Shown here: piece after piece, positions 1,839-5,907 of the stretch | How the letters are laid out: each line of letters opens with the position of its first letter | How positions within the stretch are numbered: the first letter of the stretch is position 1 | Source of the DNA: Candidatus Omnitrophota bacterium | Lineage (GTDB): Bacteria; Omnitrophota; Gorgyraeia; Zapsychrales; Zapsychraceae | Assembly (NCBI GenBank): GCA_016212005.1 | Contig: JACRHP010000028.1 | Span: forward strand, 1-32,797 | DNA length: 32,797 bases | Direction: 5' to 3' | The notes under the pieces: generated by a model | The model's database searches: none | The model's input: only the letters and a program-made list of their open reading frames with translations | Told to the model about the DNA's origin: nothing | Position numbers and translations under genes: made by a program

Positions 1839-2060
1839 ATGGATACGGCTATTAAACTAAAATTGGCTAAACGCTTACGGCAATTAAGACAGAAATATGG
1901 TTACACTCAAGAAAAACTTGCTGAACTTTCTGGTGTGGACTATAAGCATATTCAATTACTGGAGAGCAGCAATCCCTCTACCGCAAAACTGGATACTATC
2001 GAAAAACTCGCCAAAGCCTTCAAAATAACCCCTTCAAAATTATTGGATTTTAAAAAGTAA
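1839..2060 (+). CDS. Small XRE-family helix-turn-helix regulator
   Basis: A 73-residue DNA-binding protein made almost entirely of one HTH_3 (Cro/C1-type) domain: an N-terminal helix LAKRLRQLRQKYG, then the helix-turn-helix TQEKLAELSGVDYKHIQLLES, then LDTIEKLAKAFKITPSKLLDF, all typical of the fold. The track start at 1824 adds MIIHR; the second ATG (1839) is preferred because a possible -10 (GATAAT) overlaps the first start and no ribosome site precedes either. It is tail-to-tail with the integrase, overlapping its 3' end by 21 bases. A regulator of this kind beside an integrase would fit control of a mobile element, but no target operator is visible. Confidence 0.78.
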   Translation: MDTAIKLKLAKRLRQLRQKYGYTQEKLAELSGVDYKHIQLLESSNPSTAKLDTIEKLAKAFKITPSKLLDFKK

Positions 2061-3080
2061 TTTATCCACCGCCTCATCTACATGCTTCTCCGTCAAATGG
2101 CTGTAGATCATCGTCGTGTCAATGTCCGCATGCCCCATCAATTTTTTGACCGTGGCCAGATCAACGCCTTTCATCACAAGGTGAGAGGCGAAGGTGTGGC
2201 GCAGGGAGTGGACGGTGTTCGCCTCGCCGAAATTCAGCTTCTTGGCCAGAGTTTTATATCTCTTCAGGAGGCGGTTTTTGTAAATCCTGTTTCCGTCCTC
2301 GTCCGGGAACACATACTGGCTGCCGTTGACTTTGGCCCGCTGATCCTTGAGGACCTTCAAAAGCCCGTCGTTAACGGGGATCTCCCGCTCGTTGGTCTTG
2401 GGCGTCCAGTCGTCTTTGACGGCGATCTTTATTTTCCGGCGGTCAAAGTCCACGTCCCGCCATTCGAGGTTTTCCAGCTCGCTTTTTCTCATGCCTGAAT
2501 TGAGAAACGCGAAGAATACCGGACGCAGCCAATCGTCGGACGCTTCCAAAAGCTGTTTGCATTGCTCTTCGGTGAGAAACTTGGGGGCAACGGTAGTGGG
2601 AACCCGGAGCCGGGACACGCCGTCCGTCGGGTTGGCTTTCTGATAACCCCACGTTATGGCCAGACGGAACATCATCCGGAGGACGATCATTTCAGCGTTG
2701 ACCGTCCGGTTTTCCGCGCCTTCCGACTTGCGAAACTGTTTAAAATCCTCAAAGGCTTTCGGCGCGAATTGCGATAATTTTTCCAAGCGGATCGGACTTT
2801 GGGAAAGAAACCTCAAAAAATTATCCAGGATGGCCCCGTATCTTTTCCGGGTGCTCGGGGCGAGGTTGGTTTGGCAATAGGCTTTAAATTCGGAGAGAAG
2901 CTTCTCAAAGGACTGATCGGCTTTGAGAAAGCCCAATTCGTTCTTGGCAAGTTTGACTTCGAGGTCTTTTAAAGCAAGCTCGGCGATCTTCCTGGAACGG
3001 CCAACACCCTTGCGGACACGTCTGCCATTGACCCGATAGTCGATAAAATAGGTGTTCCCTTTTTGACGGAGAGTAGCCAT
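2040..3080 (-). CDS. Tyrosine recombinase / phage-type integrase
   Basis: A 346-residue site-specific recombinase. An N-terminal arm-binding-like region (ATLRQKGNTYFIDYRVNGRR) is followed by a SAM-like core-binding domain (about 60-150) and the catalytic domain. All expected catalytic residues are present in the 346-residue numbering: R198 (NSGMRKSEL), K228, H291-x-x-R294 (HSLRHTFASH), H317 (LMGHAD) and nucleophile Y326. The track start at 3188 is too early: it runs through the upstream ORF6N gene. ATG 3080 is preferred because the upstream gene stops at TAA one base before it (TAATATG), so translation is probably coupled. The gene points away from the ssrA 3' end at 3923, a common integrase target. 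Length and residues suggest an active enzyme. Confidence 0.92.
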   Translation of the reverse strand: MATLRQKGNTYFIDYRVNGRRVRKGVGRSRKIAELALKDLEVKLAKNELGFLKADQSFEKLLSEFKAYCQTNLAPSTRKRYGAILDNFLRFLSQSPIRLEKLSQFAPKAFEDFKQFRKSEGAENRTVNAEMIVLRMMFRLAITWGYQKANPTDGVSRLRVPTTVAPKFLTEEQCKQLLEASDDWLRPVFFAFLNSGMRKSELENLEWRDVDFDRRKIKIAVKDDWTPKTNEREIPVNDGLLKVLKDQRAKVNGSQYVFPDEDGNRIYKNRLLKRYKTLAKKLNFGEANTVHSLRHTFASHLVMKGVDLATVKKLMGHADIDTTMIYSHLTEKHVDEAVDKLLFKIQ

Positions 3081-3081
3081 A

Positions 3082-3609
3082 TTACGGATGCTGGTGAAAA
3101 CCGATTTTTCCCTTCGGCTTTTCGGGCTCTGAAATAAGCCGTTTAATAATTTCAACGATTGCGATAATCTCTTTATCGTGCTTACCAACTTTTTCTTCCA
3201 GCTCCTTCATTCTTTGAGCAAGCTCTTTATGAGTGTTTATAAATTCTCTTAAGCGGATAAAGGTTTTAACAATATGGATGCTTATTTTCACGGCTCTTTC
3301 GCTTTTAAGGACACTGGCTAACATGGCGACGCCGTGTTCCGTAAACGCTCTTGGTCTTACCGTCGAATGCTTCAAGCTTTTGAACCGGTCACAATTTGTG
3401 ACCAGTTCCTTTGTTTCTTCTTCACTTAACCGGAACATAAAGTCCGGGAACCTCTCCTCATTTCGATTAACGGCCTGGTTCAAGACTTTTGTTCCTACAC
3501 CATAAAGTTCCGCCAGATCTCGATCAACCATCACTCTTTGACCACGAATTAAGAATATTCTGCTCTCGACCTCTCCTGATGCTATAAAAACGATTGATTT
3601 CTTATTCAT
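3082..3609 (-). CDS. ORF6N-domain DNA-binding protein
   Basis: A 175-residue protein with an N-terminal ORF6N domain (about 10-95): IFLIRGQRVMVDRDLAELYG, RNEERFPDFMFRL and FTEHGVAMLASVL are hallmark stretches of this phage/mobile-element domain, related to KilA-N. The C-terminal half (about 105-160) is a charged helical, probably coiled-coil segment (ELAQRMKELEEKVGKHDKEI). AAAGGAG sits five bases before the ATG. It is the first gene of a two-gene unit with the integrase, separated by one base. ORF6N proteins are frequent beside integrases; their exact function is not established, and DNA binding is inferred from the domain. Confidence 0.87.
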   Translation of the reverse strand: MNKKSIVFIASGEVESRIFLIRGQRVMVDRDLAELYGVGTKVLNQAVNRNEERFPDFMFRLSEEETKELVTNCDRFKSLKHSTVRPRAFTEHGVAMLASVLKSERAVKISIHIVKTFIRLREFINTHKELAQRMKELEEKVGKHDKEIIAIVEIIKRLISEPEKPKGKIGFHQHP

Positions 3610-3849: not shown

Positions 3850-3922
3850 GCGTTAAAGAAATAGTAGCAAAATTACAAACTATTGTCAAATAATATATTT
3901 ACAACACATAAAAATAAAGAAG

Positions 3923-4329
3923 TGGAGGTGCCGGGAATCGAACCCGGGTCCTTGGGTCACTGGATATAAGCCTCTACATGCGTAGTCTATCTTTTGGTCT
4001 TACCCTAATTCCTCCGCTAGACAGGATCCTTAGGGCCAGTCTCTAGAGTCTTATTAAAAACGCCGAGACACTCGTTTCTAACCAGCCTGCTAGGGTCCCC
4101 TTGTCAAGCCCGCAGGCGAGACCTGCAAGAGGGCTTAGCTAATTATATAGCTAAGGCTGGTGCAACCGGAAGCATCGGAGCCGCGAAGATCGGGGCCACG
4201 ATGGCTTCAGCTGCCGCTAACGTTGGATCGTTTGCGTTTATTGTGTGCCTGGATTGTTAACGGGGCCGACCAAGCTTCCCCGGCATGCCACCTATACCCT
4301 ACTAACTCAAGTCGAAGCCGATCACCCCC
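3923..4329 (-). ncRNA. ssrA: Transfer-messenger RNA (tmRNA)
   Basis: About 407 nt. The 5' end GGGGGUG pairs with CACCUCC at the 3' end to form the acceptor stem, with A as discriminator and no encoded CCA. The TPsiC arm GGGTTCGATTCCC is intact. The messenger part follows the typical UAAACGCA context: resume codon GCA, then ANDPTLAAAE... for 30 codons ending ...PVAPALAI and UAA. The UAA sits in the loop of a hairpin (CTTAGCT/AGCTAAG), as in other tmRNAs. tmRNA with SmpB rescues stalled ribosomes and tags nascent proteins for proteolysis. smpB lies just upstream on the same strand. The long, Ala/Pro-rich tag ending ALAI rather than ALAA is unusual. Confidence 0.95.
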
Positions 4330-4384: not shown

Positions 4385-4608
4385 TATCCCAAATTTTGCG
4401 AAAGCAAAATTTGCCCCGAAGGGGTTGCACGACAAAATCCGATTAGGATTTTGTCGGCTTGCAAGGTAATCCCAGATTTTTCGTCATAAAATTTTGTGAC
4501 TGCACAAAATTTGGGATGCCCCGCAAAACAGGACAAACTCTCGTTGAGTTTGTCCTTGCGGCCTCTCGCTGTCGCTCGAGGCAGATTTTTCTATCGAAAA
4601 ATCTGGGA
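4385..4608 (+). repeat. Multi-hairpin element, copy 1 (224 bp)
   Basis: A chain of about seven consecutive hairpins occupying nearly the whole space between smpB and ssrA. Stems include CAAATTTTGC/GCAAAATTTG, GACAAAATCC/GGATTTTGTC, GGACAAACTC/GAGTTTGTCC and CAGATTTTTC/GAAAAATCTG. It starts TATCCC and ends GGGA. An inverted copy of identical length lies at 5158-5381. By hand I count 21 differences and no gaps, roughly 91% identity. Nothing else is visible in 4330-4646. Confidence 0.9.
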
Positions 4609-4646
4609 CAATTATAGCTGATTTTTCGATGGGAGGCAAACTTTTC

Positions 4647-5102
4647 TTACCGTCGGGACTTCTTCACCCGCCGGCTCAAGTCGCGCTGGAGATCTTTCTT
4701 TTTAATCGCCTCGCGCTTGTCGTAGGACTTCTTGCCCGTGCCCAGGGCTATCTCGACTTTGACAAACCCGCGATTATTGAAATACATTTTGGTAGGCACC
4801 AGGATCAGGCCGCGCTGGGTGGTGTATCCGAAGATCTTCTTGATCTCTTGTTTATGGAGCAGCAGTCGCCGCGGGCGCTCGGGCTCCTCATTAAGGTAAC
4901 TGGCCTGCCGGTAAGGCTCGATCTGCAGATTATAAAGGAACAACTGGCCTTCGGAAACCCGGGCAAAGCTGTCTTTAAAGTTGACATGCCCCGCCCGGAC
5001 GGACTTGACCTCCCCGCCCTTAAGCTCAATCCCGCATTCCCAGCGGTCGGTGAGGGCATAATCCCGGAACGCCTTCTTGTTGGTCGCGATCGTCTCTGCC
5101 AT
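4647..5102 (-). CDS. smpB: SsrA-binding protein SmpB
   Basis: A 151-residue SmpB, the obligate partner of tmRNA in trans-translation: it binds the tRNA-like domain and mimics the missing anticodon arm. Family landmarks are present in order: NKKAFRDYALTDRWECGI near the N-terminus, LKGGEVKSVRAG, FARVSEGQLFLYNLQIEPY, ERPRRLLLHKQEI and PTKMYFNNRGFVKVEIALG, then the basic tail (KKSYDKREAIKKKDLQRDL...) that enters the mRNA channel. Length is normal (about 150-160). It is on the same strand as ssrA, 317 bases upstream, which links the two functionally. An extended -10 (TGTTATAAT) only nine bases before the ATG implies a nearly leaderless mRNA. Inverted copies of a multi-hairpin repeat sit on both sides. 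Confidence 0.97.
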   Translation of the reverse strand: MAETIATNKKAFRDYALTDRWECGIELKGGEVKSVRAGHVNFKDSFARVSEGQLFLYNLQIEPYRQASYLNEEPERPRRLLLHKQEIKKIFGYTTQRGLILVPTKMYFNNRGFVKVEIALGTGKKSYDKREAIKKKDLQRDLSRRVKKSRR

Positions 5103-5111
5103 GGCGGGTCA

Positions 5112-5117
5112 ATTATA
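5112..5117 (-). promoter_or_regulatory. Extended -10 promoter of smpB
   Basis: TATAAT preceded by TG-T (extended -10) on the minus strand, nine bases before the smpB ATG. No good -35 was found, which is usual for extended -10 promoters. The start site would lie two to four bases before the ATG. Confidence 0.5.
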
Positions 5118-5157
5118 ACACAAAAGGTTCCGCGCTCCCCTAATTTAAATAAGGATA

Positions 5158-5381
5158 TCCCGGATTTTTCGATAGAAAAATCCGCCTCGAGCAATAGCGA
5201 GAGGCCGCAAGGACAAACTCGACGAGAGTTTGTCCTGTTTTGCGGGGTATCCCAAATTTTGTGGCCGCACAAAAGTGTACGACGAAAAATCCAGGATTAC
5301 CTTGCAAACCGACAAAATCCTCGTCGGATTTTGTCGTGCAACCCCTCCGGGGCAAATTTTGCTATTGCAAAATTTGGGATA
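5158..5381 (-). repeat. Multi-hairpin element, copy 2 (inverted, 224 bp)
   Basis: Reverse complement of the element at 4385-4608, same length, no gaps. Most differences fall in loops. In the last hairpin both arms change together: CAGATTTTTC/GAAAAATCTG in copy 1 becomes CGGATTTTTC/GAAAAATCCG here, a compensatory A-T to G-C exchange. It fills the space between the smpB promoter and the plus-strand promoter at 5392. Confidence 0.9.
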
Positions 5382-5391
5382 ATACGAATTG

Positions 5392-5420
5392 TTGACACCA
5401 AAACCCTTTATGGATATACT
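5392..5420 (+). promoter_or_regulatory. Strong sigma-70-type promoter ahead of tRNA-Leu
   Basis: TTGACA, a 17-bp spacer and TATACT: near-consensus at both boxes with optimal spacing. It faces tRNA-Leu, 196 bases downstream, and aceE beyond it. Confidence 0.7.
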
Positions 5421-5615: not shown

Positions 5616-5699
5616 GCCGAAGTGGCGGAATTGGTAGACGCGCGGCGTTCAGGGCGCCGTGGGATCACTCCCATAAGAGTTCAAATCTCTTCTTCGGCA
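5616..5699 (+). tRNA. tRNA-Leu (anticodon CAG)
   Basis: A complete 84-nt class II tRNA. The acceptor stem GCCGAAG/CTTCGGC has discriminator A and no encoded CCA. The anticodon loop TTCAGGG is closed by CGGCG/CGCCG, giving anticodon CAG at 5650-5652, which reads CUG. The long variable arm (TGGGA...TCCCA) and TPsiC arm AGAGTTCAAATCTCT fit tRNA-Leu. Confidence 0.96.
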
Positions 5700-5722: not shown

Positions 5723-5746
5723 TGCCCCCCCCCACGCTTGTTTTGT

Positions 5747-5807
5747 CCCAGTAAAGGCAAGCCTTTACTGGGATTAATCCCCGAAATTGCAAAGCAATTT
5801 CAGGGGA
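5747..5807. repeat. Two adjacent TCCC...GGGA hairpins upstream of aceE
   Basis: CCCAGTAAAGGC-AA-GCCTTTACTGGG (5747-5772, flanked by T and A) and CCCCGAAATTGC-AAA-GCAATTTC-A-GGGG (5779-5806, flanked by T and A). Both carry the TCCC/GGGA ends seen in the smpB-flanking elements. Nothing further is recognised before aceE. Confidence 0.8.
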
Positions 5808-5907
5808 CGACTTACTATCAATATCAAGGAGCAAAACAGTGGGGACAACCCGAGACATACAAAAATAGTTGTCCAACACAACCGTCGCAGCACAGAAAAG
5901 GAACCAT

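Follow-up and report, generated by a model that had tools for sequence, protein, structure and literature searches.

A probable family of non-autonomous, multi-hairpin mobile elements in Omnitrophota, with two inverted copies flanking smpB

The smpB-ssrA locus

The window examined is a 32 797 nt stretch of DNA from a Candidatus Omnitrophota bacterium. It includes ssrA (tmRNA, 3922-4329, minus strand, matching the Rfam tmRNA family), smpB (4647-5102, minus strand, identified from its ORF and homologs) and a tRNA-Leu gene (5616-5699, plus strand). Two sequences of 224 nt, copy A (4385-4608, plus strand) and copy B (5158-5381, minus strand), form a gap-free inverted pair with an identity of about 90.3-90.6 %. 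The original prediction, made from the sequence alone, described inverted copies of equal length, gap-free and about 91 % identical, and 224 nt and 90.6 % were measured. It placed one copy in the gap between smpB and ssrA and the other upstream of smpB, and the annotation agrees. The core of each copy, TCCC...GGGA, is 222 bp long (4387-4608, plus strand, with seven hairpins, in copy A; 5158-5379, minus strand, in copy B), and both smpB and ssrA lie outside the element.

Both promoters at this locus are intact despite the two copies. The ssrA promoter (TTGCCT-17 nt-TATAAT, 4611-4639, minus strand), which is kept in the relatives G005, G003 and G021, has its -10 box only 2 nt from the start of copy A. 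The ssrA transcript would thus be expected to start within copy A and to carry about 222 nt of additional pre-tmRNA 5′ leader, which RNase P would trim off with the rest of the leader, so that the insertion would be tolerated. Copy B has the divergent smpB and tRNA-Leu promoters on either side, the latter (TTGACA-17 nt-TATACT, 5392-5420, plus strand) lying just beyond it.

Other features were observed nearby. A 62 nt double hairpin, TCCC(stem)GGGATTAATCCC(stem)GGGA, at 5746-5807 is an insertion by comparison with G005 (L062); it separates TTTTG from CGACTT and has no duplication. Homologous double hairpins are found at G005:C17:543-605 and G001:C6:4437-4502, with similar ones inside three copies of the 222 bp element (G1_69, G2_58 and G1_37); judging from these sequences, this is a second small mobile hairpin type. 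At about 5725-5880, after tRNA-Leu, CCCCCACGCTTGTTTTG...CAAAACAGTGGGG forms a larger palindrome whose conserved interior is CGACTTACTATCAATATCA; the palindrome is also found in G003 and is tandemly duplicated in G005. Just past the 3′ end of ssrA, genes for a tyrosine integrase (PF00589) and an ORF6N protein (PF10543) occupy 2040-3609 (minus strand); the pair looks like an integrated island at the tmRNA gene, and an ORF6N-like gene also follows ssrA in G021 (L064). The tag peptide encoded by the tmRNA itself, ANDPTLAAAEAIVAPIFAAPMLPVAPALAI, is long and has LAI at its end, and the tags of relatives in the same genus are likewise long and variable.

Hairpin anatomy and paired changes

Seven hairpins are found in the fold of each window copy, where a chain of about seven had been proposed, and as ssDNA copy A has a folding z-score of -11 relative to dinucleotide shuffles. 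In copy A, all on the plus strand, P1 (AAATTTTGC/GCAAAATTT, with the 5′ terminal inverted repeat TCCCRRATTTTKC) spans 4388-4413, P2 (CCCCGAAGGGG) 4414-4424, and P3 (CGACAAAATCC/GGATTTTGTCG, inside TGCA/TGCA) 4426-4463. The central hairpin P4 (GGTAATCCC.../...GGGATACC, 4465-4520) is followed by P5/P6 (GGACAAACTC/GAGTTTGTCC, inside CGCA/TGCG, 4522-4560), P6′ (CCTC...GAGG, 4561-4582) and P7 (AGATTTTTC/GAAAAATCT, with the terminal GGGA, 4583-4608). The terminal inverted repeats consist of TCCC...GGGA and an imperfect 13 nt sequence, TCCCRRATTTTKC, present at both ends.

When reverse-complemented, the 3′ half matches the 5′ half in the order of its features, namely TCCC, hairpin 1, a C-rich/G-rich hairpin 2, a long hairpin 3 and GG(GG)TA(A)TCCC, with P6′ as the counterpart of P2. 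Alignment of one half against the other gave z=7-10 over dinucleotide shuffles, a control that does not preserve hairpin content, and the order of features and the solo half units therefore carry more weight. Solo half units, each terminating in the central hairpin, are present in G162, G51, G17 and G25; within G25, one copy has a 3′ half that is the reverse complement of another copy's 5′ half. The full element thus appears to consist of two inverted half units of about 110 nt each (TCCC, hairpins 1 and 2, the long hairpin 3, GGTAATCCC), a dimer in which the central hairpin P4 is shared at the junction. Hairpin modules have been gained and lost among copies G1_37, G2_58, G1_69, G1_57 and Cm41. 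The same new hairpin, GTTCATTC...GAATGAAC, was also observed in place of the 3′ arm of P4 at two different loci (G1_67 at L028 and G1_37 at L042), indicating that this structural variant has itself spread.

Copies A and B differ at 11 of 50 loop positions and at 11 of 176 stem positions, so the concentration of differences in loops that was originally noted is real. This is also true of the A-T to G-C exchange in the last stem (P7, pair 199-220), which is one of 26 pairs changed on both sides in an alignment of 17 copies (88 pairs), compared with 11.6 (sd 2.1) in shuffles. The original prediction had looked to such covariation as a check. In the same alignment, standard pairs fill 93.7 % of cells versus 89.5 % when shuffled, and pairing falls to 51 % when partners are slid by one column. 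Among distant relatives, direct reading of the sequences established that P3 has been wholly swapped with pairing kept (e.g. CGTTCAAATCC/GGATTTGAACG, GAGAAAATCTC/GAGATTTTCTC and GGCAAATCC/GGATTTGCC). Folding energy is equal on the two strands (mean difference -0.03 kcal/mol, 11 copies), and because neither strand folds better, this argues for a palindrome at the DNA level rather than a strand-specific RNA.

The original prediction took the paired change as a mark of selection or maintenance of structure. Maintenance is borne out by the 26 two-sided pairs; selection as the sole cause is not. For the paired changes, there is an appreciable, though less than even, chance that template switching at hairpins during replication (quasipalindrome correction), and not selection for structure, is what maintains complementarity between the arms. 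Many changes affect whole blocks, such as GACA to GTTA or GTTC in P3 together with the matching arm, and palindromic modules come and go among copies, both of which favour template switching. However, the terminal TCCC/GGGA and P1 are also conserved in sequence, as expected of ends recognised by a transposase.

Distribution and insertion sites

The original prediction suggested looking for further copies in the genome and for copies without smpB, and both were found; with the covariation described above, the window copies are not an isolated pair. The source genome has three copies in total, the third being on contig C19. Within the same genus there are at least 8 copies in G001, 3 in G005 and 1 in G002, and none in G003 and G004 at the thresholds used. 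The more distant G236, from another family of the same class, has at least 7 copies, full-length ones among them, of which the one compared shares about 80 % identity with the window copies; G236 is apparently isolate DeMMO3_15, where a copy has identical contig coordinates. Variants are present in further genomes. A covariance model (R1), built from 11 copies, matched 11 of 32 genomes of the family and 31 of 285 genomes of the phylum, although the weaker matches may be other hairpin arrays. A scan of GTDB DNA with a P3 pattern gave 14 matches, 10 of them in Omnitrophota; the remaining four contain a single hairpin only, or nothing, and lack the element. The patchy distribution fits mobility or horizontal spread. 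Copies are 70-92 % identical to one another, and any recent movement is therefore hypothetical.

Recognisable genes flank the copies examined, e.g. recA, polA, pfkA and sugar permeases (names read from translations). Copies differ by hairpin-sized insertions that do not preserve a reading frame, no conserved protein frame was seen, and ORFs overlapping them are only incidental. Rfam yielded the tmRNA only and no family for the element, and nothing was found in phage records or, using the exact P2-P3 pattern, in viral contigs. A search of the genus with the pattern TNATCCCRRATTTT returned, besides known elements and chance matches, two solo palindromes in G002, and none of these was paired around a gene. 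The solo palindromes (G002:C23:1929-1964, L177, and G002:C40:6739-6774, L191) are about 30 bp long, consist of terminal arms only (TCCCAAATTTTGC/GCAAAATTTGGGA and TCCCGGATTTTTC/GAAAAATCCGGGA) and would be either leftovers of the element or its smallest mobile version. No MITE family from Omnitrophota was found in the literature searched. In the literature and collections searched, the family is new and confined to Omnitrophota.

The flanks of twelve copies were joined and used to search the genus for orthologous sites without the element. Eight empty sites were found (for G1_57, G1_67, G1_76, G1_37, G5_24, G5_67, G1_69 and G2_58, against loci in G005, G000, G002, G001 and G003), several of which contain one clean TAA/TTA. 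Thus, CTTATGCATAATGGATG (G005:C75) corresponds to CATAA[TCCC...GGGA]TAATGG in G1_57, CCAGATAATCCCC (G000:C48) to GATAA[TCCC...GGGA]TAATCCCC in G1_67, and CAACGTATTATG (G002:C103) to GTATTA[TCCC...GGGA]TTATATGG in G1_76. Comparison of empty and filled sites defines the core as TCCC...GGGA, with 3 bp, TNA, duplicated. The same TNA is present on both flanks of 18 of 23 copies (mostly TAA, with TTA once and TGA once). The two window copies are among the five with flanks that are not identical (TTA/CAA and TTA/TAT), and their duplications have probably been lost through later mutation. Their mobility is therefore argued from loci lacking the element, as tRNA-Leu, smpB and ssrA occur in the same order without it in G005 (L062), G003 (L063) and G021 (L064). 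Copy B shares 92.4 % identity with the C19 copy, against 90.3 % with copy A, and copies A and B are best read as independent insertions.

Multiple copies, TCCC/GGGA ends, TNA duplications and empty sites all bear out the suggestion, one of several originally made, that the repeats are MITE-like. The two repeats are very probably independent insertions of one non-autonomous, multi-hairpin family of MITE type belonging to Omnitrophota.

Candidate movers and alternative readings

In a MITE-type family, a transposase acting in trans would recognise the inverted ends TCCCRRATTTTKC, and insertion into AT-rich intergenic TNA sites would follow, as it does for IS1031-group (IS5 family) elements, which make a 3 bp TNA target duplication (PMC12016507). 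Because the TNA duplication here is also 3 bp, a DDE transposase of the IS1031-group kind is favoured, and we tentatively regard it as the most likely mover. Target and duplication are alike, but the single IS1031-group end examined for comparison, GAACCTGTC..., is unlike TCCC (PMC12016507). The search for a transposase covered three Pfam families in draft genomes and gave none of this kind: PF01609 is absent from G000 and G005, its matches in G001, G002 and G236 have ends unrelated to TCCC/GGGA, and PF13340 and PF13359 are absent from 8 genomes. The mover may be extinct, lie outside the drafts or belong to another family.

Like the prokaryotic MITEs Correia/NEMIS, RUP, ERIC, Nezha and QMITE (PMC2229807, PMC10969869), the element is small, gene-less, intergenic and highly base-paired, with inverted ends and a target duplication. 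It differs from them in being a seven-hairpin inverted dimer with TCCC/GGGA ends and a TNA duplication, seen only in Omnitrophota in the collections searched, and no parent IS was seen. BOX of Streptococcus pneumoniae (PMC3049150), compared by anatomy only, similarly has a modular 5′ part, a 3′ part, optional hairpin modules, and short and long forms; however, its boxA-boxB-boxC arrangement with tandem boxB is different. Mobile hairpin modules also characterise the double-hairpin or repetitive hairpin-forming elements of mitochondrial DNA, which are organellar and similar by resemblance only (PMC2800124).

On a more far-reaching view, the family would be a phylum-specific class of mobile palindromes assembled from interchangeable hairpin units. 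Every form would then still move, whether a half unit, an inverted dimer, a copy with an extra double hairpin or one with a replaced stem, so that the mobilising machinery would recognise the fold and not the sequence, possibly as ssDNA; we consider this unlikely. Mobilisation as ssDNA by an HUH/RAYT-like or IS200/IS605-like system, with the hairpins as substrate, would suit the extreme hairpin content of either strand and the related double hairpins that insert without a duplication. It is nevertheless quite improbable, as 3 bp TNA duplications together with paired TCCC/GGGA ends are usual hallmarks of DDE transposition. The short palindromes of REP/RAYT systems are tagged GTAG or CGTC; the ends here are TCCC/GGGA.

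A further reading, which builds on the structured RNAs suggested originally, is that the element is selected as RNA, either as a structured transcript or for cis-regulation (of the pre-tmRNA leader or smpB, for instance). The strong two-sided stem changes, the position of copy A inside the predicted ssrA leader and an excess of G-T over A-C cells (71 versus 32, mostly owing to P4) are in keeping with this. However, the element is absent at smpB/ssrA in relatives, other copies adjoin unrelated genes, there is no matching Rfam family, and the equal folding of the two strands speaks against a strand-specific function, making selection as RNA very unlikely. Two-way transcription terminators between genes, which would account for an intergenic, hairpin-rich element and for the transcription boundary once proposed, are highly improbable, as terminator-like matches are at chance level (3 versus 3.2 expected), the stems are not followed by a U-tract, and copy A is within the ssrA transcription unit, past its promoter. 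That the inverted copies flanking smpB form a composite unit mobilising it, as was also proposed, can practically be dismissed, since the unchanged smpB-ssrA-tRNA-Leu order at the element-free loci indicates that smpB was already there and is not cargo, and the unlinked C19 copy resembles copy B more closely than copy A does.

The MITE-type element is not specific to trans-translation, and two copies happen to flank smpB. Omnitrophota are nearly all uncultured, and the combination of RNA-like covariation with the anatomy of a mobile element is a caution for structured-RNA searches in metagenomes. The family offers a test case for what keeps hairpin arms paired, selection or template switching, and copy A would illustrate how the leader of a housekeeping RNA can tolerate an insertion.
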